Of a stretch of 64,000 nt of DNA, positions 13,081-24,211 are shown one piece after another. A program made the translations under genes and the position numbers. This stretch comes from an uncultured Atopobiaceae bacterium (GTDB lineage: Bacteria; Actinomycetota; Coriobacteriia; Coriobacteriales; Atopobiaceae): NCBI GenBank assembly GCA_947625405.1, contig CANQOF010000004.1:1-64000 (forward strand), given 5' to 3'. Within the stretch, counting starts at the first letter, position 1, and every line of letters begins with the position of its first letter. Below the pieces are notes generated by a model. That model was not told where the DNA came from. It was given only the letters and a program-made list of their open reading frames with translations, and ran no database searches.

Positions 13081-13488
13081 TTAGCGATAGATGGCGATGC
13101 AATCTTCTCCGTACAGTCCGAGAAGGCGATCGCAGGTGGCGAGGGTGAGATGCTCCTGCTTGGCTTGGGCTATGAGCAGACGATCGAATGGATCCCTGTG
13201 GAGATCGCCCACCCTCTCGAGATCGAGCGTCCCGTAGCAGAAGATGGCCTCGAGGGTGATCGGCCTGAGGTTAATGGACGCCATCTCGCAGAGCTCGACG
13301 AATCGCTCGCCTGTGTAGGGCATGGCCGCAGGGTTCTTGCCGTGCTTTATGACGATCTCCAGCACGGAGGTCTCGCTCGCGAAAACGGCATTTCGCGGAT
13401 CTTCGATGGCCTTGCGAAGTGCTGTGGGAAGTCTTTCGTCACCTTTGAGAAACCAGAGGATGACGTGGGTGTCGAGGAGGAGCTTCAT
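13081..13488 (-). CDS. PIN-domain toxin (VapC-like)
   Basis: A 135-residue PIN protein with LLLDTHVILWFLKGDERLP at the start, EIVIKHGK, DLHRDPFDRLLIAQA and LATCDR, which together supply the acidic metal-binding centre. This is the 'DTH...W' subtype, common next to Phd/YefM-like antitoxins. It would act as an endoribonuclease. Its ATG overlaps the antitoxin stop by one base (TGATG), giving tight coupling. Confidence 0.85.
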   Translation of the reverse strand: MKLLLDTHVILWFLKGDERLPTALRKAIEDPRNAVFASETSVLEIVIKHGKNPAAMPYTGERFVELCEMASINLRPITLEAIFCYGTLDLERVGDLHRDPFDRLLIAQAKQEHLTLATCDRLLGLYGEDCIAIYR

Positions 13489-13736
13489 CAGCTCAGCCCG
13501 AACATCTCTGCAATCTCATCGTCCATGGCGTCGAAGGCATCCCAGTCGATATCGAAGCCGTCGCCTTTGGCGATGCCGATCCTCCGCGGCGTTTCAGACT
13601 CCGCTGCGTAAGGCACGATAATGGCAATCGGCACGTCGCGATTCCTGATGACATGCTCCCGCTCGGAACCGTCCGAGAGGGTGGCGAGGATGGCCGAGAG
13701 GTTGTTCTTCGTCTCCGCGATGGTTGAACTGGACAT
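13488..13736 (-). CDS. Phd/YefM-type antitoxin
   Basis: An 82-residue antitoxin. MSSSTIAETKNNLSAILATL and REHVIRNRDVPIAIIVPY form the Phd/YefM DNA-binding fold, and the acidic C-terminus (DIDWDAFDAMDDEIAEMFG) binds toxin. It lies first in the operon with the PIN toxin at 13081. A 12-nt perfect dyad sits 18 nt ahead of its start. Confidence 0.83.
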   Translation of the reverse strand: MSSSTIAETKNNLSAILATLSDGSEREHVIRNRDVPIAIIVPYAAESETPRRIGIAKGDGFDIDWDAFDAMDDEIAEMFGLS

Positions 13737-13846: not shown

Positions 13847-14818
13847 TCAAACCTCCACGACGATCTTGCCGTCGACGGAGCCCCCGTCTTGGGCGATGAG
13901 AGCGTCGCGGATGCGGGAGAAGGGGAAGACGGCGCCGATCCGCGGCTTCAGGTCGTGTTCGGCGATAAACGCGAAGATAGCATCCATCGTCTCTCGATCC
14001 GGCCAGTTGGAGTGGAAGCCCGTGAGGTAGACGCCGTTCGGAATGTCGGAGATCGGGTTGAACTGTCGGAGGCTGAAGACGCCGCCGAGGACGCCCGTGT
14101 CGCAGACGACGCCTCCCCTCGGCATGCAGCGGAGGGTGTCGAGGAGCGTCTTCGCACCCACGAGCTCGAGCGCCTTGTCCGCGTAGGCGTGGCCGTCAGC
14201 GAGGCGGCCCGCGTCGAGCACGACCTCGTCGGCGCAGGCGACGAGCGGGAGCTTCGCCTCCTTATGGGTGGTGGCCACGACCCGGCAGCCGAGCGCCTTC
14301 GCCAGCTGTAGGGCAGCGTAGCCGAGGGCGCAGGTGGCGCCGCGGATGAGGAGGCTCTCTCCACGCTCTAGCCGAAGTCCTTGGAAGAGCGAGCCCCAGG
14401 CCGTGAAGCAGGTCTCGGGGATGGCCGCGAGCTCGGGCCAAGGCAGGTCGCTTTCGACGGGGAAGACGTGGTCCGCGGGCAGGAGCGCGTACTCGGCGTA
14501 GCTGCCGTCGAAGCTCCGGCCCATGCCGCCCATGAGGGCGACCACCCTCTGGCCGGGTGCGAGGCCGCTATCCGCGGGGTCGGCCACCTCGCCCGCGCAC
14601 TCGATGCCCGGGATGACGGGCTTTTGGATGGAGGGTTCGTCGATCTCTTCCTGTCGCAGGATCTGCTCGGAGTGGTTGAGCCCGAAGGCCCGCACGCGCA
14701 CGAGCACCCAGCCGGGACGGGCGTGCGGGACGGGCACCTCGGTGAGGTGGACATCCTCTGCCCTCGTCCTCCCCGTGAGCACGACGGCCCGCATTGTCTC
14801 GGGAATCTGGCCGCTCAT
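13847..14818 (-). CDS. MDR (quinone-reductase type) oxidoreductase, last gene of the RiPP-type operon
   Basis: A 323-residue zinc-free medium-chain reductase of the NADPH:quinone reductase type. It has LTEVPVPHARPGWVLVRVRAFGLNHSE, PGIECAGEV, and the nucleotide-binding segment LLIRGATCALGYAALQLAKALGCRVVATT. No zinc-binding Cys cluster is present. The ATG overlaps the stop of the flavin/ferredoxin gene (ATGA), so the two are co-translated, and both lie downstream of the radical SAM enzyme and peptide gene. A role in reducing a modified peptide, an intermediate or a quinone is plausible, but only context supports it. Confidence 0.82.
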   Translation of the reverse strand: MSGQIPETMRAVVLTGRTRAEDVHLTEVPVPHARPGWVLVRVRAFGLNHSEQILRQEEIDEPSIQKPVIPGIECAGEVADPADSGLAPGQRVVALMGGMGRSFDGSYAEYALLPADHVFPVESDLPWPELAAIPETCFTAWGSLFQGLRLERGESLLIRGATCALGYAALQLAKALGCRVVATTHKEAKLPLVACADEVVLDAGRLADGHAYADKALELVGAKTLLDTLRCMPRGGVVCDTGVLGGVFSLRQFNPISDIPNGVYLTGFHSNWPDRETMDAIFAFIAEHDLKPRIGAVFPFSRIRDALIAQDGGSVDGKIVVEV

Positions 14819-15441
14819 CCGAGGCGCTCCACCGCGCCAACCGGGCAGGCCTCGAAGCAGGCGCCGCAGTGGAGGCAGTGCGCGGCCACGATGGCAAAGG
14901 GGTCGCCCGCCTCGATGCAGCCCTGCGGGCAGACGGCCGCGCACGTGCCGCAGCCGATGCAGGCGTCGGTGATGGCGAATCCCTTCGGCTTCGCCGCTCC
15001 CGCCCCGAGCGCGTACGTCTCGCGGAAGATAGGGCGCTCGCCGAGGTTGAAGTACTCAATCGAGAGGTCCGTGAGCTCGAAGACGATGCCGATGGAGCGG
15101 GTGTCGCCCGGATAGACGTTTTCAAGGAGCGGCTGCTCGGCGAAGATGCGATCGATCCAGGCCGACTGCTCGGCCTCGGGCACAGGCTTCGCGATCCCGC
15201 TCACGCGGATCATCTCGTTGAACCGCGTGTGGACCACGAGCTGCGAGCGCCCGTCCGCCAGCAGTTCCTCGCAGAAGTCCTTACCGCGGGCCGTGAAGAA
15301 GAAGAGCCGCTCGGGTCTGTCCTTGGGCTCGAGCGAAATGGCGCTGATAAGCCGCACCTGCGGCGCGCCCGTGGCGTCCACGGTGGCGTAGGAGACGACG
15401 CCCACGAGGGCGACCTTCTGAAGGCAGGTGGCGGCGTCCAT
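14815..15441 (-). CDS. Flavin-binding split-barrel protein fused to a 2[4Fe-4S] ferredoxin
   Basis: A 208-residue protein. Residues 1-130 match the pyridoxamine-phosphate-oxidase-like FMN-binding split barrel (VALVGVVSYATVDATGAPQVRLI, LFFFTARGKDFCEELL, VVHTRFNEMIRVSGIA). Residues 150-205 are a bacterial ferredoxin with two CxxCxxCxxxCP clusters (CIGCGTCAAVCP and CLHCGACFEACP). Such fusions pass electrons between flavin and Fe-S partners. It lies 10 nt after the radical SAM gene and overlaps the MDR gene, so it is a good candidate for the reductant that supplies electrons to the radical SAM enzyme. That role is inferred. Confidence 0.85.
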   Translation of the reverse strand: MDAATCLQKVALVGVVSYATVDATGAPQVRLISAISLEPKDRPERLFFFTARGKDFCEELLADGRSQLVVHTRFNEMIRVSGIAKPVPEAEQSAWIDRIFAEQPLLENVYPGDTRSIGIVFELTDLSIEYFNLGERPIFRETYALGAGAAKPKGFAITDACIGCGTCAAVCPQGCIEAGDPFAIVAAHCLHCGACFEACPVGAVERLG

Positions 15442-15451
15442 GGTGCTCCTC

Positions 15452-16534
15452 TCAGGCGGGAACCGATTCGACGGTGATTGCGGGCTGGGCGGCCTTCCAA
15501 CACTGCGGATCCTGGGCGTAGAAGCTGCCCGACGTGCCCGAGGCGACGGCGGGGCAGCCTCGGCAGAACCGGAGGAGCTCGCAGTCCGAGCACTTCTCGA
15601 AACTGCCGAGCTCGCGGAAGGCCTCGAAGGGACCGAGCCAGAGGTCCTGGAGCCGATCCTCGAAGACGTTTCCGACGACGCTTCCGGCTACACGACGGCA
15701 CGCCATGACGTCGCCCTCGGAGGTGATGGTGAGGTGGCAGTCGCCACAATGGCAGCCGCCGTGGACGAGCCCGTCATCGCTCTGGTCATCGAGCGAGAAG
15801 GCCCCCGTCTCGTAGTCGTAGAGCGTCCAGAGGTGGTCCTTCTTGTTGAAGTAGGTCTCGGCGCCGTGGGCCTCGTGCCACCTGAAGCGTTCATCGCAGG
15901 CGGCGAGGAGCGACCGATAGCGCTCCGGCGCGATACCCACATCCTTGTCCTCGGCTGTCGGGCAGTAGCGCGAGAAGGCGAAGACGTCCGCCCCCGCCTC
16001 GACGACGACGTCGATGAGCTCGGGAATCTCATCCACGTTCGCCGCGGAGACGGTCGTCATGACGATGGCACGGATGCCGCCTGCCTTGAGCTTGGGGATC
16101 GTCTCGAGGGTCGCTCGGTAGGAGCCGGGCTTGCGAAACCAGTCGTGGGTCTTCTCGAGGCCGTCCAACGAGAGCTGGTAGCGGATCACGCCAAGCGCTT
16201 GCATCCGAGCGATGGATTCTTCCGTTAGGTGGAAGGGATTACCCATCACCGTGATGCCATAGCCGCCCTCGCGGATGAGGGCGAGGAGGCGCCAGAAGTC
16301 CGGGTGGAGGATGGGATCGCCGCCGGTTATATAGAAATAGGGCCTTCGCCCGAAGACCTCGCAGAACTCGAGGATGCGGGCGAAGGTCCGCTCGATTTGC
16401 TCCCAGCTCATCTCCATTGGACGCCGCGCAACGTCCTCCGCGTAGAGGTAGCAGTGCTTGCAGCGCTGGTCGCACGCGTCCGTGATGTGCCACTGGAAGG
16501 CGAAGGGCTCTCCGGTAAGGGCGATTTGGCTCAC
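15452..16534 (-). CDS. Radical SAM/SPASM peptide-modifying enzyme
   Basis: A 360-residue enzyme. The radical SAM cluster ligands are Cys21, Cys25 and Cys28 in TDACDQRCKHCYLYAED. YFYITGGDPILHPDFW is the GGEP-like motif. The C-terminal SPASM region has CHCGDCHLTITSEGDVMAC, then CSDCELLRFCRGC and a final Cys near the end, enough for two auxiliary [4Fe-4S] clusters. SPASM enzymes commonly make thioether or C-C crosslinks in ribosomal peptides. The gene starts with GTG 6 nt after the stop of the Cys-repeat peptide gene, so the two are coupled, and the peptide is the evident substrate. From memory it resembles the TIGRFAM CbpB class acting on CbpA peptides; I could not verify this. Confidence 0.87.
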   Translation of the reverse strand: MSQIALTGEPFAFQWHITDACDQRCKHCYLYAEDVARRPMEMSWEQIERTFARILEFCEVFGRRPYFYITGGDPILHPDFWRLLALIREGGYGITVMGNPFHLTEESIARMQALGVIRYQLSLDGLEKTHDWFRKPGSYRATLETIPKLKAGGIRAIVMTTVSAANVDEIPELIDVVVEAGADVFAFSRYCPTAEDKDVGIAPERYRSLLAACDERFRWHEAHGAETYFNKKDHLWTLYDYETGAFSLDDQSDDGLVHGGCHCGDCHLTITSEGDVMACRRVAGSVVGNVFEDRLQDLWLGPFEAFRELGSFEKCSDCELLRFCRGCPAVASGTSGSFYAQDPQCWKAAQPAITVESVPA

Positions 16535-16540
16535 CGATAC

Positions 16541-16735
16541 CTACTTATCTGCGGCGCCACAAGCAGCTGGCTTGTCGGCGGCTCCGCATGCAGCTGGCTT
16601 GTCGGCGGGCTTGTCGGCGGCGCCACACGCAGCTGGCTTGTCCGATGCGCCACACGCGGCGGGCTTGTCGGCCGCGCCACACGCGGCTTCGGGAGCATAG
16701 GCGTGAGCCCACGACGCGAAATCTTTGAGGGACAT
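16541..16735 (-). CDS. RiPP precursor with five Cys-x3-Asp repeats
   Basis: A 64-residue peptide. Residues 1-17 (MSLKDFASWAHAYAPEA) look like a short leader. Residues 18-64 hold five copies of a nine-residue unit, consensus ACGAADKPA, with Cys at 19, 28, 37, 50 and 59 and an Asp exactly four residues after each. The spacing is 9, 9, 13, 9; the 13 comes from an inserted KPAD. No other Cys is present. AAGGAGG sits 4 nt before the ATG. Cys-x3-Asp repeats are the known crosslink motif of the ranthipeptide freyrasin, where a radical SAM enzyme joins Cys sulfur to the Asp beta carbon. The gene lies directly ahead of a radical SAM/SPASM enzyme, which makes a modified peptide very likely. Confidence 0.85.
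   Translation of the reverse strand: MSLKDFASWAHAYAPEAACGAADKPAACGASDKPAACGAADKPADKPAACGAADKPAACGAADK
16544..16684. repeat. Tandem 27-nt coding repeats inside the precursor gene
   Basis: Five imperfect 27-nt units encode the nine-residue Cys repeat; one spacing carries an extra 12 nt. Copies differ at some third positions, and one has an Ala-to-Ser change. The array can expand or shrink by recombination, which would change the number of crosslink sites between strains. Confidence 0.85.
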
Positions 16736-16796
16736 GGGGCCTCCTTCGGCTCGATTGGGATGTGCCTTAAGTCTCGGGCCCCCATGCAATCCCACA

Positions 16797-16820
16797 AGTA
16801 CGCACTTCGAAGTAACTACT
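16797..16820. promoter_or_regulatory. Dyad operator between the RiPP operon and hxlR-type gene
   Basis: AGTA-N3-ACTTCGAAGT-N3-TACT is a symmetrical 24-nt dyad with a perfect 10-nt core (16804-16813). It lies 62 nt from the peptide start and 68 nt from the HxlR start, in the only gap between these divergent units. It is probably the HxlR binding site. Confidence 0.65.
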
Positions 16821-16839
16821 GGCAGCCGGAAGCACCATA

Positions 16840-16866
16840 TGGATACTTGGAAAGCGTCGAGCTAGA
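16840..16866. repeat. 27-nt sequence shared with 22507-22533
   Basis: The segment beginning TGGATACTTGGAAAGCGTCG is 25/27 identical to 22507-22533, upstream of the macrodomain gene. Both copies lie in 5' regions of unrelated genes, 22 and 34 nt before the start codons. Confidence 0.6.
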
Positions 16867-16887
16867 CGCATCGGAAAGGGAGCTTCC

Positions 16888-17229
16888 ATGGCATTCGATC
16901 CCCAAAACCCGCCCGAGTGCCCGGTTGCCCTCACCGTTGCTCTCATCGGCTCCAAATGGAAGCTCCTCATCATCCGAAACCTCCTCAAGCGCCCCTGGCG
17001 CTTCAACGAGCTCCACCGCGACCTCGACGGCGTCTCGCAGAAGGTGCTCACCTCGAGCCTTCGCGAGCTGGAGGCCGACGGCCTCGTCCACCGCGAGGTC
17101 TTCCCCGAGGTCCCGCCTCGCGTGGAGTATTCGCTCACCGATCTCGGCAAGACCCTCGAGCCGGTGCTCGCGTCAATGGAGGAGTGGGCCATCGCCTATC
17201 GGGATACGATTCTCTGTGACGCCAGTTGA
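16888..17229 (+). CDS. HxlR-family transcriptional regulator
   Basis: A 113-residue winged-helix regulator. ECPVALTVALIGSKWKLLIIRNLLKRPWRFNELHRDLDGVSQKVLTSSLRELEADGLVHR matches HxlR proteins closely, including the N-terminal Cys (Cys11) that in HypR-type members senses electrophiles or disulfide stress. YSLTDLGKTLEPVLASMEEWA closes the domain. It is divergent from the RiPP-type operon, with a dyad in between, so it most likely controls that operon. A redox signal through Cys11 is possible but unproven. Confidence 0.88.
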   Translation: MAFDPQNPPECPVALTVALIGSKWKLLIIRNLLKRPWRFNELHRDLDGVSQKVLTSSLRELEADGLVHREVFPEVPPRVEYSLTDLGKTLEPVLASMEEWAIAYRDTILCDAS

Positions 17230-17277
17230 CGAAGGCCTTGCAGGCCGTGTCTTCACGACGACCATGAGGGGCACTCG

Positions 17278-18129
17278 ATGCAGGTCATTCGCTCGATCAA
17301 TCACAACGCAGCCATCGGCTTTGACTCGCTCGGGCGAGAGGTTGTCGTCATGGGTCGCGGCGTGGGGTTCGGAAAGCTGCCGCGCGACATCCCCCTCGCC
17401 GAGATAGAACGCACATTCGTGGGCATCGATCCCAAGTACTTCCAGCTCATCGCTGATATGCCCTATGAGTACCTCTCGTTTGCCGCGCAATTTGCCGACG
17501 TCGTACGGGTTCAGGTCTCCCACGAGCTCTCTTCGAATCTCCCCATCACCCTCGCCGACCACATCGCCTTCATGGTGAAGCGCGCTCGCGAAGGTCTCTA
17601 CCTTGCAATGCCGCTTGCAGAGGACGTCGCACAGTCCTATCCGGTCGAATTCCGGCTTGGGAAGTTCTGCGTCCAAGCGGTAGAGAGGACGTTCAACGTA
17701 CGCCTGCCACGTGGCGAGGCCGTGGGCGTGGCCCTCTCCATCGCCATGAATGCCGTCTCCTCAAGCGAGGCCACGGCCATGCAAGCCGTCCGCGATGAGC
17801 AGGCAGTTGATCGGGCCACGCGCATCATCGAACGTGAATTCGATGTGAGGATCGACCGCGATTCCTTCGACTACGCGCGCTTTTCCACCCATGTGCGAAG
17901 CCTGTTGCAGCGCATGCGCAAGAACGCACCCATGGACACGTCGAACCGAGACCTCATCTCCGAATTGCGCGATCGATACCCTGCTACCGCGGCCTGCGTG
18001 GATGAGATGGCACGCACGCTCGTCCCGCTGGATCCCGCGAAGGTCACCGAGGAAGAGCGCATGTACCTCCTCCTCCATACGAACAGGATTCTCAGCCGGG
18101 CAAAACAGCCCTCGAAGAAGAGCGCTTGA
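17278..18129 (+). CDS. BglG/LicT-type transcription antiterminator with two PRDs
   Basis: A 283-residue antiterminator. Residues 1-58 are the CAT RNA-binding domain (MQVIRSINHNAAIGFDSLGREVVVMGRGVGFGK). PRD1 contains LADHIAFMV with its first His; at the position of LicT His159 (LHIVNA) this protein has LSIAMNA, so the second PRD1 His is replaced by Ser. PRD2 keeps both His (FSTHVRSLL and LLLHTNRIL). PTS phosphorylation of PRDs controls dimerisation; losing one PRD1 site should alter response to the cognate EIIB. It is 179 nt upstream of the PTS gene whose leader carries the RNA target. Confidence 0.9.
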   Translation: MQVIRSINHNAAIGFDSLGREVVVMGRGVGFGKLPRDIPLAEIERTFVGIDPKYFQLIADMPYEYLSFAAQFADVVRVQVSHELSSNLPITLADHIAFMVKRAREGLYLAMPLAEDVAQSYPVEFRLGKFCVQAVERTFNVRLPRGEAVGVALSIAMNAVSSSEATAMQAVRDEQAVDRATRIIEREFDVRIDRDSFDYARFSTHVRSLLQRMRKNAPMDTSNRDLISELRDRYPATAACVDEMARTLVPLDPAKVTEEERMYLLLHTNRILSRAKQPSKKSA

Positions 18130-18153
18130 CTCCCGCCAAAAGGTCGCTACGAT
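18126..18153 (+). promoter_or_regulatory. Promoter of the beta-glucoside PTS operon
   Basis: TTGACT (18126-18131) and TACGAT (18148-18153) with a 16-nt spacer. Transcription would begin near 18160, just before the antiterminator hairpin. The -35 overlaps the stop codon region of the PRD gene. Confidence 0.6.
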
Positions 18154-18164
18154 TCCAATCAAAT

Positions 18165-18194
18165 GAGACGTTACTCGCTGAGCTGCGAGGTGTC
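18165..18194 (+). promoter_or_regulatory. Candidate ribonucleic antiterminator (RAT) of the PTS leader
   Basis: GACG (18167-18170) pairs with TGTC (18191-18194), and CTCGC pairs with GCGAG, separated by an asymmetric internal loop containing TTA. This is the two-stem layout of BglG/LicT RNA targets, and the GTTACT stretch recalls the GGATTGTTACTG consensus. The gene for the RNA-binding partner is directly upstream. Confidence 0.5.
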
Positions 18195-18195
18195 G

Positions 18196-18247
18196 CATTG
18201 GCAGCCGGGATAGTAATCCCAAGGCCAACGATGCCTGCGGCTCTTTT
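18196..18247 (+). terminator. Candidate leader terminator controlled by the RAT
   Basis: AGCCG pairs with CGGCT (18241 region) and GCATTGGC with GCCA..ATGC around an inner GGGAT-AGTA-ATCCC hairpin (perfect 5-bp stem), followed by CTTTTC. It abuts the RAT, so antitermination is sterically possible. Energy was not computed. Confidence 0.45.
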
Positions 18248-18308
18248 CGTGGATCCTTCCCGACTGCCAAACGGTCAATTGCCATGAGCAGTCGCGGAAG
18301 GAGATTTC

Positions 18309-20249
18309 ATGGCCGACGACAAGAACCAGCGCATTGCATCCGATGTGCTCCAAGCCGTTGGCGGCAAGGACAACGTGTCCTCGGCGCTTCACTGCATGAC
18401 CCGCCTGCGCCTTCACCTGAAGGATGAGGGTCTCGCCGATATCGACAAGATCAAGGAGATCCCCGGCGTGCTCGGTGCCCAATGGGCCGGTGGCCAGCTT
18501 CAGGTGATCATCGGCCAGAACGTACCGAAGGTGCATCAGGCCGTCATCGCCCTCGGCGTCGCTTCCGGCGGAAACATCGAGGAAAACCTTGATGCGCCGG
18601 AGGAGAAGCTCACGTGGGCGCTCGTCGGGCAAAAGATCATGGGCTATCTCTCAGGCTCCATGGTCCCGCTCATCCCCGTCCTCATGGCCGCGGGCCTCAT
18701 CAAGGCCCTCACCGCCATCATCGGCCCCGACTTCTTGAACCTCGTGTCGGTTGAGAGTGGCGTCTATATCATCCTCGACTTCGTCTATGACGCCGGCTTC
18801 TACTTCATCCCTATCCTCATCGGCTTCAACGCGGCGAAGGCGCTGAATATCAACCAGCTGCTCGGGGCGTACATGGGCTGCATCCTCATCGCGCCCGACC
18901 TCATCGCGCTCGCTACGACGGAGGGTGCGTCGCTCGATCTGTTCGGGATGCCAATCATCCTCAACAACTATTCCCAGAGCGTGCTTCCCATCCTCCTGTC
19001 TGTGTGGATCATGAGCTTCCTCTACAAGTTCTTCGAGCGCTACATGCCAAGCACGCTCTCGACGATCTTCACGCCCTTCCTCACGATCTTCATCATGACG
19101 CCCATTTCACTCATCGCGCTTGCGCCCCTCGGCTCCATCCTTGGCACCTACGTCTCGCAGGGCCTCTACGCCTTCGGCGCCGTGGGCGGCTTCATCGCAG
19201 TGGGCGTGGTTGCCGGCCTCTGGGAGTTCCTCGTCCTCACCGGTATGCACATGGTGCTCATCGTCCTCATGATGAACGAGCTCCTCACCACCGGTGCCAT
19301 GACCGGCGTCGCGACGGCTGGCTCGTTTGCCACATGGGCGGCGTTCGGCGTGGCGCTCGGTGCGATGATCCGACTCAAGAACAAGGAAGATAAGTCCACT
19401 AACCTTGGCTTCTTCATCTCCGGCATCATCGGCGGTGTTACCGAACCCGTTCTCTACGGCACGTGCTTCAAGTTCCAGCGCACCTTCATCGCGCTTGTGA
19501 TCGGAGGCTTTGCCGGCGGCATCTACGCGGGCATCACCGGTGTAAAGATGTTCCTCATGTCGAGCACGAACGTGCTGAGCCTGCTCGGCTTCATGGGCGG
19601 CGACATGGCCAACATGGTGAACGGCACGATCGCCTGCCTCATTGCCTTCGTGCTGACTGCCATCCTCACGTACTTCATCGGCTTCACCAAGGAGCAAATC
19701 GAGGGCAAGCCCGCCACTGGGATTGAAGCCGATGAATCCTCCTCTGAGCAGGAGGGCTTCCAGCCGGTGGAGGAGGTCACGATCGAAAGCCCCATTCCTG
19801 GAACCGTCGTGCCCCTCGACACCGTGAAGGATCCTACCTTCGCATCCGGCGTCCTCGGCCATGGGTTTGCCGTCGAGCCCATTGAGGGCAAGGTCTACGC
19901 TCCATTCGATGGCACCGTCGTGACGATCTTCGACACCAAGCATGCCATCGGCCTGCGTTCCGACGAGGGGGTCGAGCTGCTCATCCATATCGGACTCGAG
20001 ACCGTGAACCTTGGTGGCAAGCCCTTCATCGCGCACTGCGTCGACGGACAACACGTGAAGAAGGGCGATCTCTTGATGGAATTCGACATCGACGAGATTG
20101 CGAAAGCCGGTTGCGACACGATCGTGCCCGTCATCGTCTCAAACGAGTACGAGGTGGGAGAAGCCAAGGTCGAGGGTGACCGCATCATCGTCGGCGGCCC
20201 TTCCGAGGTGTCAGGCGCGCTTCCCGCAGCGGACACGGCAACTGCCTAG
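18309..20249 (+). CDS. PTS EIIBCA, beta-glucoside family
   Basis: A 646-residue membrane permease of the glucose/beta-glucoside superfamily in B-C-A order. EIIB: SALHCMTRLRL with phosphocysteine Cys29. EIIC: residues about 105-465, some ten hydrophobic segments, with GVTEPVLYG typical of the sugar site. EIIA: residues about 490-640, with His560 in LLIHIGLETV as the HPr-phosphorylated residue. It imports and phosphorylates a beta-glucoside, or possibly a diacetylchitobiose-like sugar given the deacetylase downstream. GGAAGGAG precedes the ATG. Expression should depend on the PRD protein at 17278 through the leader structures. No phospho-beta-glucosidase gene follows, which is unusual for this family. 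Confidence 0.93.
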   Translation: MADDKNQRIASDVLQAVGGKDNVSSALHCMTRLRLHLKDEGLADIDKIKEIPGVLGAQWAGGQLQVIIGQNVPKVHQAVIALGVASGGNIEENLDAPEEKLTWALVGQKIMGYLSGSMVPLIPVLMAAGLIKALTAIIGPDFLNLVSVESGVYIILDFVYDAGFYFIPILIGFNAAKALNINQLLGAYMGCILIAPDLIALATTEGASLDLFGMPIILNNYSQSVLPILLSVWIMSFLYKFFERYMPSTLSTIFTPFLTIFIMTPISLIALAPLGSILGTYVSQGLYAFGAVGGFIAVGVVAGLWEFLVLTGMHMVLIVLMMNELLTTGAMTGVATAGSFATWAAFGVALGAMIRLKNKEDKSTNLGFFISGIIGGVTEPVLYGTCFKFQRTFIALVIGGFAGGIYAGITGVKMFLMSSTNVLSLLGFMGGDMANMVNGTIACLIAFVLTAILTYFIGFTKEQIEGKPATGIEADESSSEQEGFQPVEEVTIESPIPGTVVPLDTVKDPTFASGVLGHGFAVEPIEGKVYAPFDGTVVTIFDTKHAIGLRSDEGVELLIHIGLETVNLGGKPFIAHCVDGQHVKKGDLLMEFDIDEIAKAGCDTIVPVIVSNEYEVGEAKVEGDRIIVGGPSEVSGALPAADTATA

Positions 20250-20265
20250 GCCCTCCTCTCTCTAG

Positions 20266-20298
20266 GACCCGGCGCCTTGATGACGGGCGCCGGGTCTT
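20266..20298 (+). terminator. Terminator after EIIBCA
   Basis: An 11-bp perfect stem (GACCCGGCGCC / GGCGCCGGGTC) around a 9-nt loop, followed by TTCCTTCT. The deacetylase gene 60 nt further on needs read-through or its own promoter. Confidence 0.8.
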
Positions 20299-20356
20299 CC
20301 TTCTCAAAACATAAGCGAAAAAACGCTTGACCCAATCACGTCGAAAGGGGCGGACG

Positions 20357-21127
20357 ATGACGCGGCGCATTCTCATACGTGCAGATGACCTTGGGTATTC
20401 CCGTGGGGTGAATTACGGTATCGCGGACTCGGTGAGGCACGGGATCATCCGATCGGTGGGCGTCATGCCCAACATGCCCGAGGCGGAGATGGGCCTCCGA
20501 CTATTGGAAGGAGTGTCCGTTTGCTACGGGCAGCACACCAACGTCTGCGTCGGGCAGCCCCTCACCGACCCCGCGCGCATCCCGAGCCTCTGTCAGCCGA
20601 ATGGCGAGTTCAAGGCGAGCCGAGAGTATCGTGAGGCCTTCAAGCGGGGCGAGGATTTCGTCGACGTCGATGAGGCCTGCCTCGAGATCGAGGCGCAGCT
20701 TACGCGCTTCATCGAACTCGTCGGCGACGAACCCCATTACTTCGAGGGACACGCCATCGCGAGCAAGAACTTCTTCACAGCGCTCGAGGTGGTAGCTAAG
20801 CGCCACGAGCTTCCCTATCTCGGCATGAGCTTCGACTTCAGCGCCCCCATCACCTTCCGGCGCTCTAGGCTCTACACCTCCATGGATAGCATGGGCCCCG
20901 ACTACGACCTCTTCGAGAGCCTGAAGCGCGCCGCTCTCAAGGACTACGACGAAGACGCGTGTTGCATGTTCGTCTGCCATCCGGGGTATCTCGACGCCTA
21001 CATCCTCGCCACGTCCTCGCTCACCATCCCGCGCACGCAGGAGGTGGCGATGGCGATGGATCCGAAGACCCGCGAGTGGCTCTCGGACCATGGGGTGGAG
21101 GTCATCACCTACGATGACCTCGCGTAA
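20357..21127 (+). CDS. ChbG/HpnK (YdjC-like) carbohydrate deacetylase
   Basis: A 256-residue protein. RILIRADDLGYSRGVNYGIADSV contains the Asp pair of the YdjC metal site; EGHAIA near residue 135 and FVCHPGYLD near 205 supply His ligands. Family members remove acetyl groups from diacetylchitobiose or related N-acetyl sugars, often on the phosphorylated form that a PTS delivers. ATG 20357 follows AAAGGGG. Placed after the PTS permease, it suggests that the imported sugar carries an N-acetyl group. Between the genes there is a terminator and a small AAGCG-N6-CGCTT dyad. Confidence 0.85.
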   Translation: MTRRILIRADDLGYSRGVNYGIADSVRHGIIRSVGVMPNMPEAEMGLRLLEGVSVCYGQHTNVCVGQPLTDPARIPSLCQPNGEFKASREYREAFKRGEDFVDVDEACLEIEAQLTRFIELVGDEPHYFEGHAIASKNFFTALEVVAKRHELPYLGMSFDFSAPITFRRSRLYTSMDSMGPDYDLFESLKRAALKDYDEDACCMFVCHPGYLDAYILATSSLTIPRTQEVAMAMDPKTREWLSDHGVEVITYDDLA

Positions 21128-21214
21128 GCTCCTTAACCAGCTCGCGATGTAGCGCATCGGAGGTGCTCCAGAGGATTACGGAGACACCGGGCGTTCGAGG
21201 GAAAGAAGGGCAAC

Positions 21215-22465
21215 ATGACCGGAGGAGAGCAGCTCGCGGCGTTTGCGAGCGAGGCGTATCGGCGAACCATCACGCGGGTGGGCGAGCGAATCTATCACTT
21301 CCTCGGATTCGGGCACTCCAACGCCACGGCCATCATCGGCGGTACCTCGGTCATCCTCGTGGACGCACTCGACTCGCCGGGCTACGCAGCCGAGCTCGAC
21401 CGGGCGCTCAAAGGCATCACCGAGAAACCCGTGAAGACCATCATCTACACCCATGGCCACCCCGACCATCGGGGTGGCGCGGGATATTGGCGCGGCACCG
21501 TCGAAGAGGTGATCGCCCACGCCCCCGTCCGCGAGCCCCTTGAGGGCTACGACCGCATCGCCTCCGCCCTCGAGCGCAGGGGCGCGCGCCAGCACGGCTA
21601 TGGGCTGAGCGACGAAGAGGCCATCTGCCAGGGCATCGGCATCCGCGAGGGGCACGAGACGGGTGCCGGTGGCTACGATTTCCTCGCCCCGACGAATCTC
21701 CTCGAAGGCGGCCTCGCCACGATGGAGATCGACGGCGTGGCGTTGGAGCTCCGTTCGGCGCCAGGCGAGACCGATGACGCGATGCTCGTCTGGCTTCCCG
21801 ATGACGCCGTGCTCTGCTCAGGAGATGTCTACTACGCCACCTTCCCCAACCTCTACGCTATCCGCGGGACCCAGTACCGAGACGTCGCGCAATGGATCCA
21901 CGCGCTCGACCTCGTGCTCTCCTATCCCGCCGAGGCGCTGCTTCCAGGCCATACCGCCGCGCTCATAGGCCATGGCCTCATCCAAGAGCAGGTGGGCGCG
22001 TACCGGGACGCCCTCCGTTTCCTGCTCGAGGGCACGCTCGCCGCCATCGAGGCGGGCCTCACCGAAGACGAGGCGGTGGAGGCGGTGCGCCTGCCGGAAG
22101 AGCTCGCGGCAAAGCCCTTCCTCGGCGAGTTCTACGGCATGGTGGAGTGGGCAGTGCGCAGCATCTACGTGGGCTATGTGGGCTGGTTCGACGGCAATCC
22201 TGCGAAGCTCCTCCCGCTCTCCGAGGACGCATGGCAGGACGAGCTTCGTGCGCTTATCGGTGATCGCAGGCTCGAGAATCGCACGCTCCGGGCCATCGAC
22301 GAAGGGGAGTACCAGCTTGCGCTCCAGCTGCTCGGCATCTGGGAGCCCACGCGCGAGCGGACGCGGCTCCTCGCCAAGGCGCTGCGTGGTCGCGCGGAGC
22401 AGGTGACGAGCGCCAACGCTCGGCACTACTACTTCGCCTGCGCGCACGAGCTCGACGAACCCTAG
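21215..22465 (+). CDS. Alkylsulfatase-type metallo-beta-lactamase-fold hydrolase
   Basis: A 416-residue protein. Residues 25-260 form a metallo-beta-lactamase fold with THGHPDHRGG as the metal motif, plus LCSGDVYYATFPNLYAIRGTQYRD, which is the alkylsulfatase signature region. Residues 270-400 match the alkylsulfatase dimerisation domain (YVGYVGWFDGNPAKLLPLS is diagnostic). Homologues of the SdsA/BDS1 type release sulfate from alkyl sulfates, usually after export; no signal peptide is visible here, so a cytoplasmic enzyme is likely. At about 416 residues it is shorter than SdsA (about 650), lacking the C-terminal SCP2-like domain. Confidence 0.85.
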   Translation: MTGGEQLAAFASEAYRRTITRVGERIYHFLGFGHSNATAIIGGTSVILVDALDSPGYAAELDRALKGITEKPVKTIIYTHGHPDHRGGAGYWRGTVEEVIAHAPVREPLEGYDRIASALERRGARQHGYGLSDEEAICQGIGIREGHETGAGGYDFLAPTNLLEGGLATMEIDGVALELRSAPGETDDAMLVWLPDDAVLCSGDVYYATFPNLYAIRGTQYRDVAQWIHALDLVLSYPAEALLPGHTAALIGHGLIQEQVGAYRDALRFLLEGTLAAIEAGLTEDEAVEAVRLPEELAAKPFLGEFYGMVEWAVRSIYVGYVGWFDGNPAKLLPLSEDAWQDELRALIGDRRLENRTLRAIDEGEYQLALQLLGIWEPTRERTRLLAKALRGRAEQVTSANARHYYFACAHELDEP

Positions 22466-22506: not shown

Positions 22507-22533
22507 TGGATACTTGGGAAGCGTCGAGCTCGA
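22507..22533. repeat. 27-nt sequence shared with 16840-16866
   Basis: The partner copy of the upstream repeat, beginning TGGATACTTGGGAAGCGTCG, 34 nt ahead of the macrodomain gene. Confidence 0.6.
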
Positions 22534-22566: not shown

Positions 22567-23361
22567 ATGAATACGAAGCCCCAAAGCCAAGGAGATCGGC
22601 TCCTCTGGCTCATACGCGCACTTCTCGCCGAAGACCCGAGGTATCGGGGCCTCGCGATCCCCGACGACCCTGAGGGGCAATGGCGCCTTTATCGAGCGCT
22701 CGTCAACGTGCGTCCGCCGAGGCCCGTCAGCGATGAGTACCTGCGCATCCAAGACGCCTACCTGCAGGATCTCCTCTGCGAGAGGGGTGTGGCCGATTAC
22801 CGCGAGCTCGAGCCGAGGGCGCCGCATCTCTATCTCTGGCAAGGCGACATCACCGCGCTCGCCGTGGACGCCATCGTGAACGCCGCCAACAGCCAGATGC
22901 TCGGATGCTTTTATCCCAACCACGGCTGCATCGATAACGCGATCCACACGTTCGCGGGCGTCGAGCTTCGCCTCGCGTGCGCCGAGCTCATGGCAAAGCA
23001 AGGGCATGAGGAGCCTGCGGGCCACGCGAAGGCCACGCCGGCCTTCAACCTCCCCAGTCGCTTCGTGATCCACACCGTGGGGCCCGTGGTTCGCGGTATT
23101 CCCACGCCGAGGGATCGCGCGCTCCTCGCTTCCTGCTATTGGAACTGTCTCGACGCGGCTGCCGAGAGGGGCCTTGCCAGCATCGCCTTCTGTTGCATCT
23201 CTACTGGCGAGTTCGGCTATCCGCAGGAAGAGGCCGCTGAGACGGCACTGGCCGCAGTGGGGGAGTGGCAACGAGCCCATTTTGGCGCCGCGAAGCCCAT
23301 CGATGTGGTCTTCAATGTGTTCAAGGATGATGACTATGCCATCTACCAGCGGCTTCTTTAG
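22567..23361 (+). CDS. Zinc-containing macrodomain protein (ADP-ribosyl hydrolase, SirTM-linked)
   Basis: A 264-residue macrodomain protein. An N-terminal helical extension (1-85) precedes the macro fold: LYLWQGDITALAVDAIVNAANSQMLGC, then FYPNHGCIDNAIHTFAGVELR, which is the zinc-binding insertion typical of macrodomains encoded with class M sirtuins, and CCISTGEFGYPQEEAAETAL as the phosphate loop. It would remove ADP-ribose placed on a target protein by the sirtuin-like partner. The next gene starts 26 nt before this one ends, so the two proteins are made together. Confidence 0.9.
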   Translation: MNTKPQSQGDRLLWLIRALLAEDPRYRGLAIPDDPEGQWRLYRALVNVRPPRPVSDEYLRIQDAYLQDLLCERGVADYRELEPRAPHLYLWQGDITALAVDAIVNAANSQMLGCFYPNHGCIDNAIHTFAGVELRLACAELMAKQGHEEPAGHAKATPAFNLPSRFVIHTVGPVVRGIPTPRDRALLASCYWNCLDAAAERGLASIAFCCISTGEFGYPQEEAAETALAAVGEWQRAHFGAAKPIDVVFNVFKDDDYAIYQRLL

Positions 23362-24211
23362 TTCACGAGCAACGGATGTCCGCCGCGGCCTTCGGCGGCT
23401 CGCGGGGATGCTGAATGACGTCGACGCCGTGGTCATCGGCGCGGGAGCGGGCCTCTCCACAGCCGCGGGATTCGCGTACTCGGGCGAGCGCTTCGAGCGT
23501 TACTTCGGCGACTTCGCCGAGCGCTATGGCATCGCCGACATGTACTCCGGCGGCTTCTATGCGTTCCCGTCGCCGGAGACCACGTGGGCGTGGTGGGCGC
23601 GCCACATCTTCTACAACCGCTACGTCGAAGCGCCAAAGGCCACGTACCAGCGGCTGCGCAAGTTGGTGGATGGCCGAGACCACTTCGTGATCACCACGAA
23701 CGTGGACCACTGCTTCCAAAAGGCGGGGTTCGAGAAGGAACGCCTCTTCTACACGCAAGGCGACTACGGCCTTTGGCAGTGCTCGCTACCCTGCCACCAG
23801 GAGACCTACGACAACGAGGCGCAGGTGCGGCGCATGCTCGTCGAAGAGCGGGATATGGCCATCCCCTCCGAGCTCATGCCCACCTGTCCGCGGTGCGGAC
23901 GTCCAATGTCGATGAACCTTCGCGCCGACGACACGTTCGTCGAGGATGCGGGCTGGCATGCCGCCGCGAAGCGCTACGCGAGCTACCTCGATGCCCATGC
24001 GACGTCGCGCGTGCTCTACCTCGAACTCGGCGTGGGCGCGAACACCCCCGTCATCATCAAGTATCCCTTCTGGCAGTTCACCGCGCTCAATCCCCGCGCC
24101 TCCTACGCCTGCGTGAACCTCGGCGAGGCCTTCTGCCCACAAGAGATCGCCGAGCGCTCCGTGTGCGTCAACGCCGACATCAACGACGTACTCGACGCCC
24201 TCGGCGTGTGA
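23336..24211 (+). CDS. SirTM-type sirtuin (protein ADP-ribosyltransferase)
   Basis: A 291-residue class M sirtuin. AVVIGAGAGLSTAAGFAYSG binds NAD; VITTNVDHCFQKAGF and FYTQGDYGLWQCS replace the canonical sirtuin TQN-D and catalytic His motifs in the way SirTM proteins do, which favours ADP-ribosylation over deacetylation. CPRCG is part of the zinc site. I chose ATG 23336, inside the macrodomain gene, with AAGGA ahead, because a full N-terminal helix is then present. In staphylococci and streptococci this pair is linked to a lipoylated GcvH-like carrier and a lipoate ligase; neither is in this window, so the substrate here is open. Confidence 0.88.
   Translation: MPSTSGFFSSRATDVRRGLRRLAGMLNDVDAVVIGAGAGLSTAAGFAYSGERFERYFGDFAERYGIADMYSGGFYAFPSPETTWAWWARHIFYNRYVEAPKATYQRLRKLVDGRDHFVITTNVDHCFQKAGFEKERLFYTQGDYGLWQCSLPCHQETYDNEAQVRRMLVEERDMAIPSELMPTCPRCGRPMSMNLRADDTFVEDAGWHAAAKRYASYLDAHATSRVLYLELGVGANTPVIIKYPFWQFTALNPRASYACVNLGEAFCPQEIAERSVCVNADINDVLDALGV

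Follow-up and report, generated by a model that had tools for sequence, protein, structure and literature searches.

Class M sirtuin and zinc macrodomain genes accompany an ACGX peptide locus of an Atopobiaceae bacterium: its Cys/Asp repeat peptide as a candidate target of reversible ADP-ribosylation

Class M sirtuins (SirTM) are best known from the extended SirTM operons of Staphylococcus and Streptococcus, which comprise GcvH-L, LplA2, Zn-Macro, SirTM, OYE and LLM. SirTM ADP-ribosylates lipoylated GcvH-L at Asp27 and the zinc-dependent macrodomain (Zn-Macro) reverses the modification, in connection with oxidative stress (Rack et al. 2015, PMC4518038; 2024, PMC11490716). GcvH-L is the sole known SirTM target, and what the further SirTM/Zn-Macro systems modify is not known (Rack et al. 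2024, PMC11490716). Another described system, the PapA/PapB pair of the ranthipeptide freyrasin, combines a peptide carrying repeated Cys-x3-Asp motifs with a radical S-adenosylmethionine (SAM)/SPASM enzyme; PapB crosslinks Cys-x3-Asp, including nested and in-line motifs, and accepts Glu (PMC9413430). Finally, NCBIfam defines an uncharacterised ACGX system by two models, TIGR04341 for the precursor and TIGR04340 for the enzyme, which cover just the pair and assign no function; the genes are named acgA and acgM in RefSeq. A search of the open-access PMC literature, which leaves subscription journals uncovered, returned no relevant paper on ACGX, TIGR04340/41, acgA/acgM or a link between SirTM and radical SAM enzymes. 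Here we describe an acg locus in a stretch of 64,000 nucleotides (the window) from an uncultured Atopobiaceae bacterium (contig CANQOF010000004.1). Genes for SirTM and Zn-Macro recur in ACGX operons, and on that ground AcgA is a candidate target of ADP-ribosylation.

The locus had been read, in an initial annotation made from the DNA letters, as a cluster for a ribosomally synthesised and post-translationally modified peptide (RiPP) with a ranthipeptide-like product. Its gene-level description held throughout: the 64-residue peptide with Asp at +4 of every Cys (positions 19, 28, 37, 50 and 59), the radical SAM/SPASM gene starting 6 nt downstream, the flavin-barrel/ferredoxin fusion, the MDR oxidoreductase, the divergent HxlR regulator and an operator dyad were all recovered. 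It missed the linked Zn-macrodomain/SirTM pair at 22567-24211. The features are as follows.

13847..14821, minus strand: MDR-type quinone/zinc-less oxidoreductase (Pfam ADH_N, ADH_zinc_N; best NCBIfam match quinone_pig3, under its cut-off)
14815..15441, minus strand: PNPOx-like flavin barrel fused to a 2x[4Fe-4S] ferredoxin (Pfam PNPOx_N, Fer4)
15452..16534, minus strand: acgM, GTG start, radical SAM/SPASM enzyme of the ACGX system (TIGR04340)
16541..16735, minus strand: acgA, ATG open reading frame (ORF) of 64 aa, ACGX-repeat precursor peptide with five C-G-x-x-D units and an N-terminal MSLKDFASW motif (TIGR04341; homologues in 77 loci)
16798..16819, no strand assigned: imperfect dyad GTACGCACTTCGAAGTAACTAC between the HxlR gene and acgA, a degenerate copy of the operator seen across the family, RGTTAC-N6-GTRACY
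16840..16863, plus strand: promoter/leader element TGGATACTTGGRAAGCGTCGAGCT, copy 1, on the HxlR gene side
16888..17229, plus strand: HxlR-family regulator (PF01638), divergent from acgA, with an invariant N-terminal Cys11
22507..22530, plus strand: promoter/leader element TGGATACTTGGRAAGCGTCGAGCT, copy 2, upstream of the Zn-macrodomain gene
22567..23361, plus strand: zinc-dependent macrodomain, a predicted protein-ADP-ribose hydrolase with a Cys-His-Cys zinc loop LGCFYPNHGCIDN (SauMacro 5kiv)
23336..24211, plus strand: SirTM, class M sirtuin with Gln for the catalytic His (TQGDYG) (SpySirTM 5a3a)

By profile score, the peptide and the enzyme are members of the ACGX system: AcgA scores 48.7 bits against TIGR04341 (cut-off 28) and AcgM 525.6 bits against TIGR04340 (cut-off 400), and the gene order is identical. 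The neighbourhood of HxlR, reductases, Zn-Macro and SirTM is an addition of the present analysis. The search for relatives covered 84,980 species genomes and found 464; the 80 best loci, mostly from gut Lachnospiraceae and Oscillospiraceae, were retained for analysis. Clustering of their neighbours gave the order HxlR (divergent), acgA, acgM, nitroreductase or MDR, PNPOx-ferredoxin, Zn-macrodomain, SirTM, the place of the window's MDR gene being taken in relatives by either an MDR or a nitroreductase gene. For 65 loci the sequence reached 4.5 kb or more beyond acgM; here co-directional genes lying downstream within 6 kb of acgM encoded a nitroreductase in 40, PNPOx-ferredoxin in 33, SirTM in 32, Zn-Macro in 23 and MDR in 15. 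The complete six-gene run is also present, under independent RefSeq annotation, on a Roseburia plasmid, as acgA-acgM-nitroreductase-4Fe4S-ADP-ribose hydrolase-Sir2 with a divergent HTH gene; a DUF1848 gene adjoins SirTM there (L186:10007-10948), and DUF5131 genes lie downstream of several other ACGX operons (L062:10715-11629, L087, L094, L106). One typical gut-Firmicutes ACGX locus (L057) is on a contig filed under Candidatus Brocadia, which is probably mis-binned.

The association was also seen at the level of whole genomes. In a sample of 299 Lachnospiraceae genomes (the family of locus L123), 36 carried acgM and 140 carried SirTM. SirTM was present in 31/36 acgM-positive and 109/263 acgM-negative genomes (odds ratio 8.8, Fisher p = 2.5e-7), and it lay within 5 kb of acgM in 21/36 when any orientation was allowed, co-directionally in 19/36. 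Six genomes of the window's own genus split evenly, three with both acgM and SirTM and three with neither. A coarse phylum-wide sampling with TIGR04340 gave a score above cut-off for the window's genome only.

In the window the two halves are separate, the Macro-SirTM pair lying 5.3 kb past the HxlR gene. The macrodomain matches SauMacro 5kiv at 1.6e-74 with the Cys, His and Cys of the zinc loop aligned, and its homologue in the ACGX locus L062 scores 377 bits against NF003163 (cut-off 272). The sirtuin matches SpySirTM 5a3a at 1.1e-67, is 63% identical to the SirTM of the L062 operon and carries the Gln motif kept in 59/59 sequences; with an overlapping macrodomain gene upstream, it is assigned to class M and predicted to be a transferase. 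Element TGGATACTTGGRAAGCGTCGAGCT has two matches in the window at three or fewer mismatches and 0 in shuffles, its 17-base core has just two matches at two or fewer mismatches in the whole 1.72 Mb genome, and 41/54 bases are identical around the two copies. The second copy of the HxlR-side element, before Macro, is a link inside the window between the pair and the acg locus. Genes for a LicT antiterminator, a bgl-type phosphotransferase system (PTS), a ChbG-like protein and a metallo-beta-lactamase-fold (MBL) protein fill 17278-22465 in between. In the nearest relative, of the same genus (L145), HxlR, Macro and SirTM are contiguous and divergent from acgM, the HxlR and Macro matches lying only some 12 nt apart, and a more distant family member (L135) has the same HxlR-Macro-SirTM order. 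The block is missing from that place in both and is therefore probably an insertion in the window.

No match to GcvH (GCV_H) and none to lipoate ligase of the LplA/BPL family (BPL_LplA_LipB) was found in the window's genome, which is 98.5% complete, so the only known SirTM target is absent from it, and GcvH-L and LplA2, as present in the extended SirTM operon, are undetected. A full-length GcvH match was likewise absent from 24/27 genomes tested, the window's included. What the window shares with the extended operon is the Gln-for-His SirTM, the Cys-His-Cys Zn-Macro, flavin oxidoreductases and a redox link; the places that a lipoyl carrier and its ligase would occupy there are taken in the window by the Cys/Asp peptide AcgA and the radical SAM enzyme AcgM. 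Gene content, conservation, the promoter copy and this lack of detectable GcvH and lipoate ligase are observations, and the operon itself is well supported.

We then considered the repeat of AcgA. The nine-residue unit of the initial annotation stands, although one interval is 13 residues long through an inserted ADKP. Over 77 distinct related precursors with 491 Cys, position +1 is Gly in 98% and position +4 is Asp (266) or Cys (196), jointly 94%, so that the two patterns compose C-x3-C-x3-D units; conversely, 266/278 core Asp have a Cys at -4. CxxxD occurs 266 times against a shuffle mean of 32, in a test that ignores the relatedness of the repeats. This excess, with the TIGR04341 score, indicates that the pattern is not due to chance, and flanks differ between repeats (ACGTPDP, ACGASDL, ACGAADK) with Cys, Gly and Asp kept. 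As judged from these sequences, the pairing of Cys with an acid is real and under strong constraint. A strict Cys-x3-Asp rule is, on the same reading, not universal across the family: in Firmicutes precursors 40% of Cys have Cys instead of Asp at +4 (CGSACGAGD), and the archaeal homologue on a Methanosphaera plasmid, ACGSEVVSSACGTE, has Cys-Gly-x-Glu with Glu at +3 as the acid. The assumption of one Cys-x3-Asp thioether per Cys thus fails to generalise. At the Methanosphaera locus (L187:4138-7722) the enzyme annotation is split over two ORFs, genes of 4Fe-4S and MDR type accompany it, and BREX defence genes are close by.

AcgM carries CX3CX2C and seven SPASM Cys, conserved in homologues apart from the occasional single deviation in a draft sequence. 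Its AlphaFold model (pLDDT 85) predicts an ordinary radical SAM/SPASM fold whose closest matches are SuiB, SkfB, anSME, CteB and ChlB; the model begins at the radical SAM core and no separate N-terminal recognition domain was evident in it, no profile search having been aimed at one. Two AcgM homologues of 44-46% identity (L142, L143) have no recognised ACGX precursor nearby. The regulator has YybR (HypR) as its nearest solved relative (1.4e-30) and shares with this HxlR/DUF24 protein one conserved Cys in the N-terminal part; the residue, Cys11, does not vary among 11 homologues. Redox sensing is predicted on this ground, and the regulon differs from that of HypR. The family operator, allowing one mismatch, was found in 38/57 intergenic regions against 2.8 expected from shuffles. 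Scans gave no sigma-70-type promoter or terminator in 16500-17300 and no Rfam match in 10-30 kb of the window. Adjoining the acg locus are a PIN-domain toxin-like gene (13081-13736) and, upstream of it, a small antitoxin-looking gene.

These observations lead us to a model for which the chances appear evenly balanced: the acg locus would be the form that a widespread, intracellular thiol/electrophile-stress module under HxlR control takes in Atopobiaceae, with the Cys/Asp peptide AcgA as the likely SirTM target. The chemistry (thioether included), this targeting and the stress role are each inferred. A thiol- or electrophile-sensing regulator of HypR type would control acgA-acgM together with the flavin/Fe-S reductase genes, and also the Macro-SirTM pair. 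AcgM would act on the repeat cysteines of AcgA by radical SAM chemistry, the most economical guess being a link from Cys-S to an Asp/Glu carbon (Asp C-beta), because the carboxylate would stay free. The modified peptide could then act as a multi-site redox or scavenging thiol carrier served by PNPOx-ferredoxin and MDR/nitroreductase. ADP-ribosylation of the peptide by SirTM would most likely fall on the Asp, or possibly the Cys, of its C-G-x-x-D units. With the Zn-macrodomain stripping the ADP-ribose again, the carrier would be switched off and on. AcgA, AcgM and the reductases would formally replace the lipoyl carrier, ligase and oxidoreductases of the lipoyl-GcvH-L/LplA2/OYE-LLM/Zn-Macro/SirTM system of Staphylococcus and Streptococcus, and it is from this formal place that AcgA is proposed as a switched intracellular thiol carrier or scavenger. 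We put forward tentatively, as somewhat short of an even chance, that AcgA represents a novel type of SirTM substrate, one that in gut anaerobes replaces lipoylated GcvH-L as the thiol carrier subject to reversible ADP-ribosylation, and that it is the first RiPP under such control.

Several observations weigh against this model, and some of them speak for a rival in which acgA-acgM and macro-sirTM are separate thiol-stress effectors under one HxlR regulator, SirTM then modifying another protein. Shared regulation alone could account for the acg-SirTM link. About half of the acgM loci lack SirTM in the downstream stretch fetched, and the two halves are split in the window by the 5.3-kb LicT-PTS-ChbG-MBL block. 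SirTM/Zn-Macro pairs are common without acgM in the window's family (SirTM in 87 and acgM in 14 of 140 genomes) and often stand beside an HxlR gene without acgA. The SirTM tree groups ACGX-linked forms weakly, the ACGX label is confounded with taxonomy, and linked and solo forms are not firmly resolved. The window's own dyad fits the family operator poorly, with at least three mismatches. Shared regulation only nonetheless seems doubtful to us, if a serious possibility, given the Macro-SirTM pairs repeatedly co-operonic downstream of acgM in Firmicutes, the genome-level co-occurrence and the carrier-like AcgA with its conserved Asp. Solo pairs near HxlR genes, with no acgA-acgM, were noted at L167, L172 and L175-L182; the distribution suggests that HxlR control of SirTM systems extends beyond ACGX loci.

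The remaining alternatives concern what AcgM makes. In the ranthipeptide-type reading of the initial annotation, AcgM forms up to five Cys-x3-Asp thioethers, a general protease trims the peptide and the product is exported. Its RiPP-type precursor/radical SAM pair and constrained Cys/Asp repeat survive our analysis, the AcgM model resembles the folds of RiPP maturases, and the specificity of PapB would suit such a peptide. AcgM is, however, far from the PapB family (NF047865, 53.8 bits against a cut-off of 340), Asp is missing at +4 for the 40% of Cys noted above, and Cys-x2-Glu variants occur. The suggested relation to CbpA/cobopep was not borne out either: the only NCBIfam matches of the precursor are TIGR04341 and a weak one to MovA, and AcgM scores 52.5 bits against CbpB (TIGR04163, cut-off 375). 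No protease or exporter recurs around the best 80 loci, where the actual partners are HxlR, flavin/ferredoxin reductases, Zn-Macro and SirTM, for which intracellular redox/ADP-ribosylation roles are predicted. A secreted natural product is weakened accordingly, and we regard it as unlikely. AcgM might instead oxidise Cys otherwise, as anSME does to formylglycine or thioaldehyde or in an SbtM-like Cys-Gly thiazole/oxazole type of reaction, giving a redox or metal-binding peptide. Cys-Gly is indeed more constant than Asp at +4, anSME is among the nearest folds of the model, and SbtM (TIGR04082) is the second-best family of AcgM at 165 bits; this falls short of its cut-off of 350, and the Asp/Glu conservation is left unexplained unless it serves ADP-ribosylation, so that such an oxidation is possible and no better than that. 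For a metallothionein- or methanobactin-like metal binder with Cys/Asp as ligands, the regular spacing and the MovA match can be cited; the latter reaches 15 bits of a curated cut-off of 33, no conserved metal transporter or metalloregulator occurs among the neighbours of the best 80 loci, and we find this very improbable.

AcgA is therefore presented as a candidate target of reversible ADP-ribosylation rather than as a typical secreted peptide antibiotic. The module offers a concrete, co-encoded candidate SirTM target, present in about 12% of the genomes sampled from one Lachnospiraceae-type family and in some Atopobiaceae. With it, a curated but function-less RiPP family, presumed until now to make a natural product, would probably belong to intracellular redox biology, and radical SAM chemists would gain an abundant repeat substrate.

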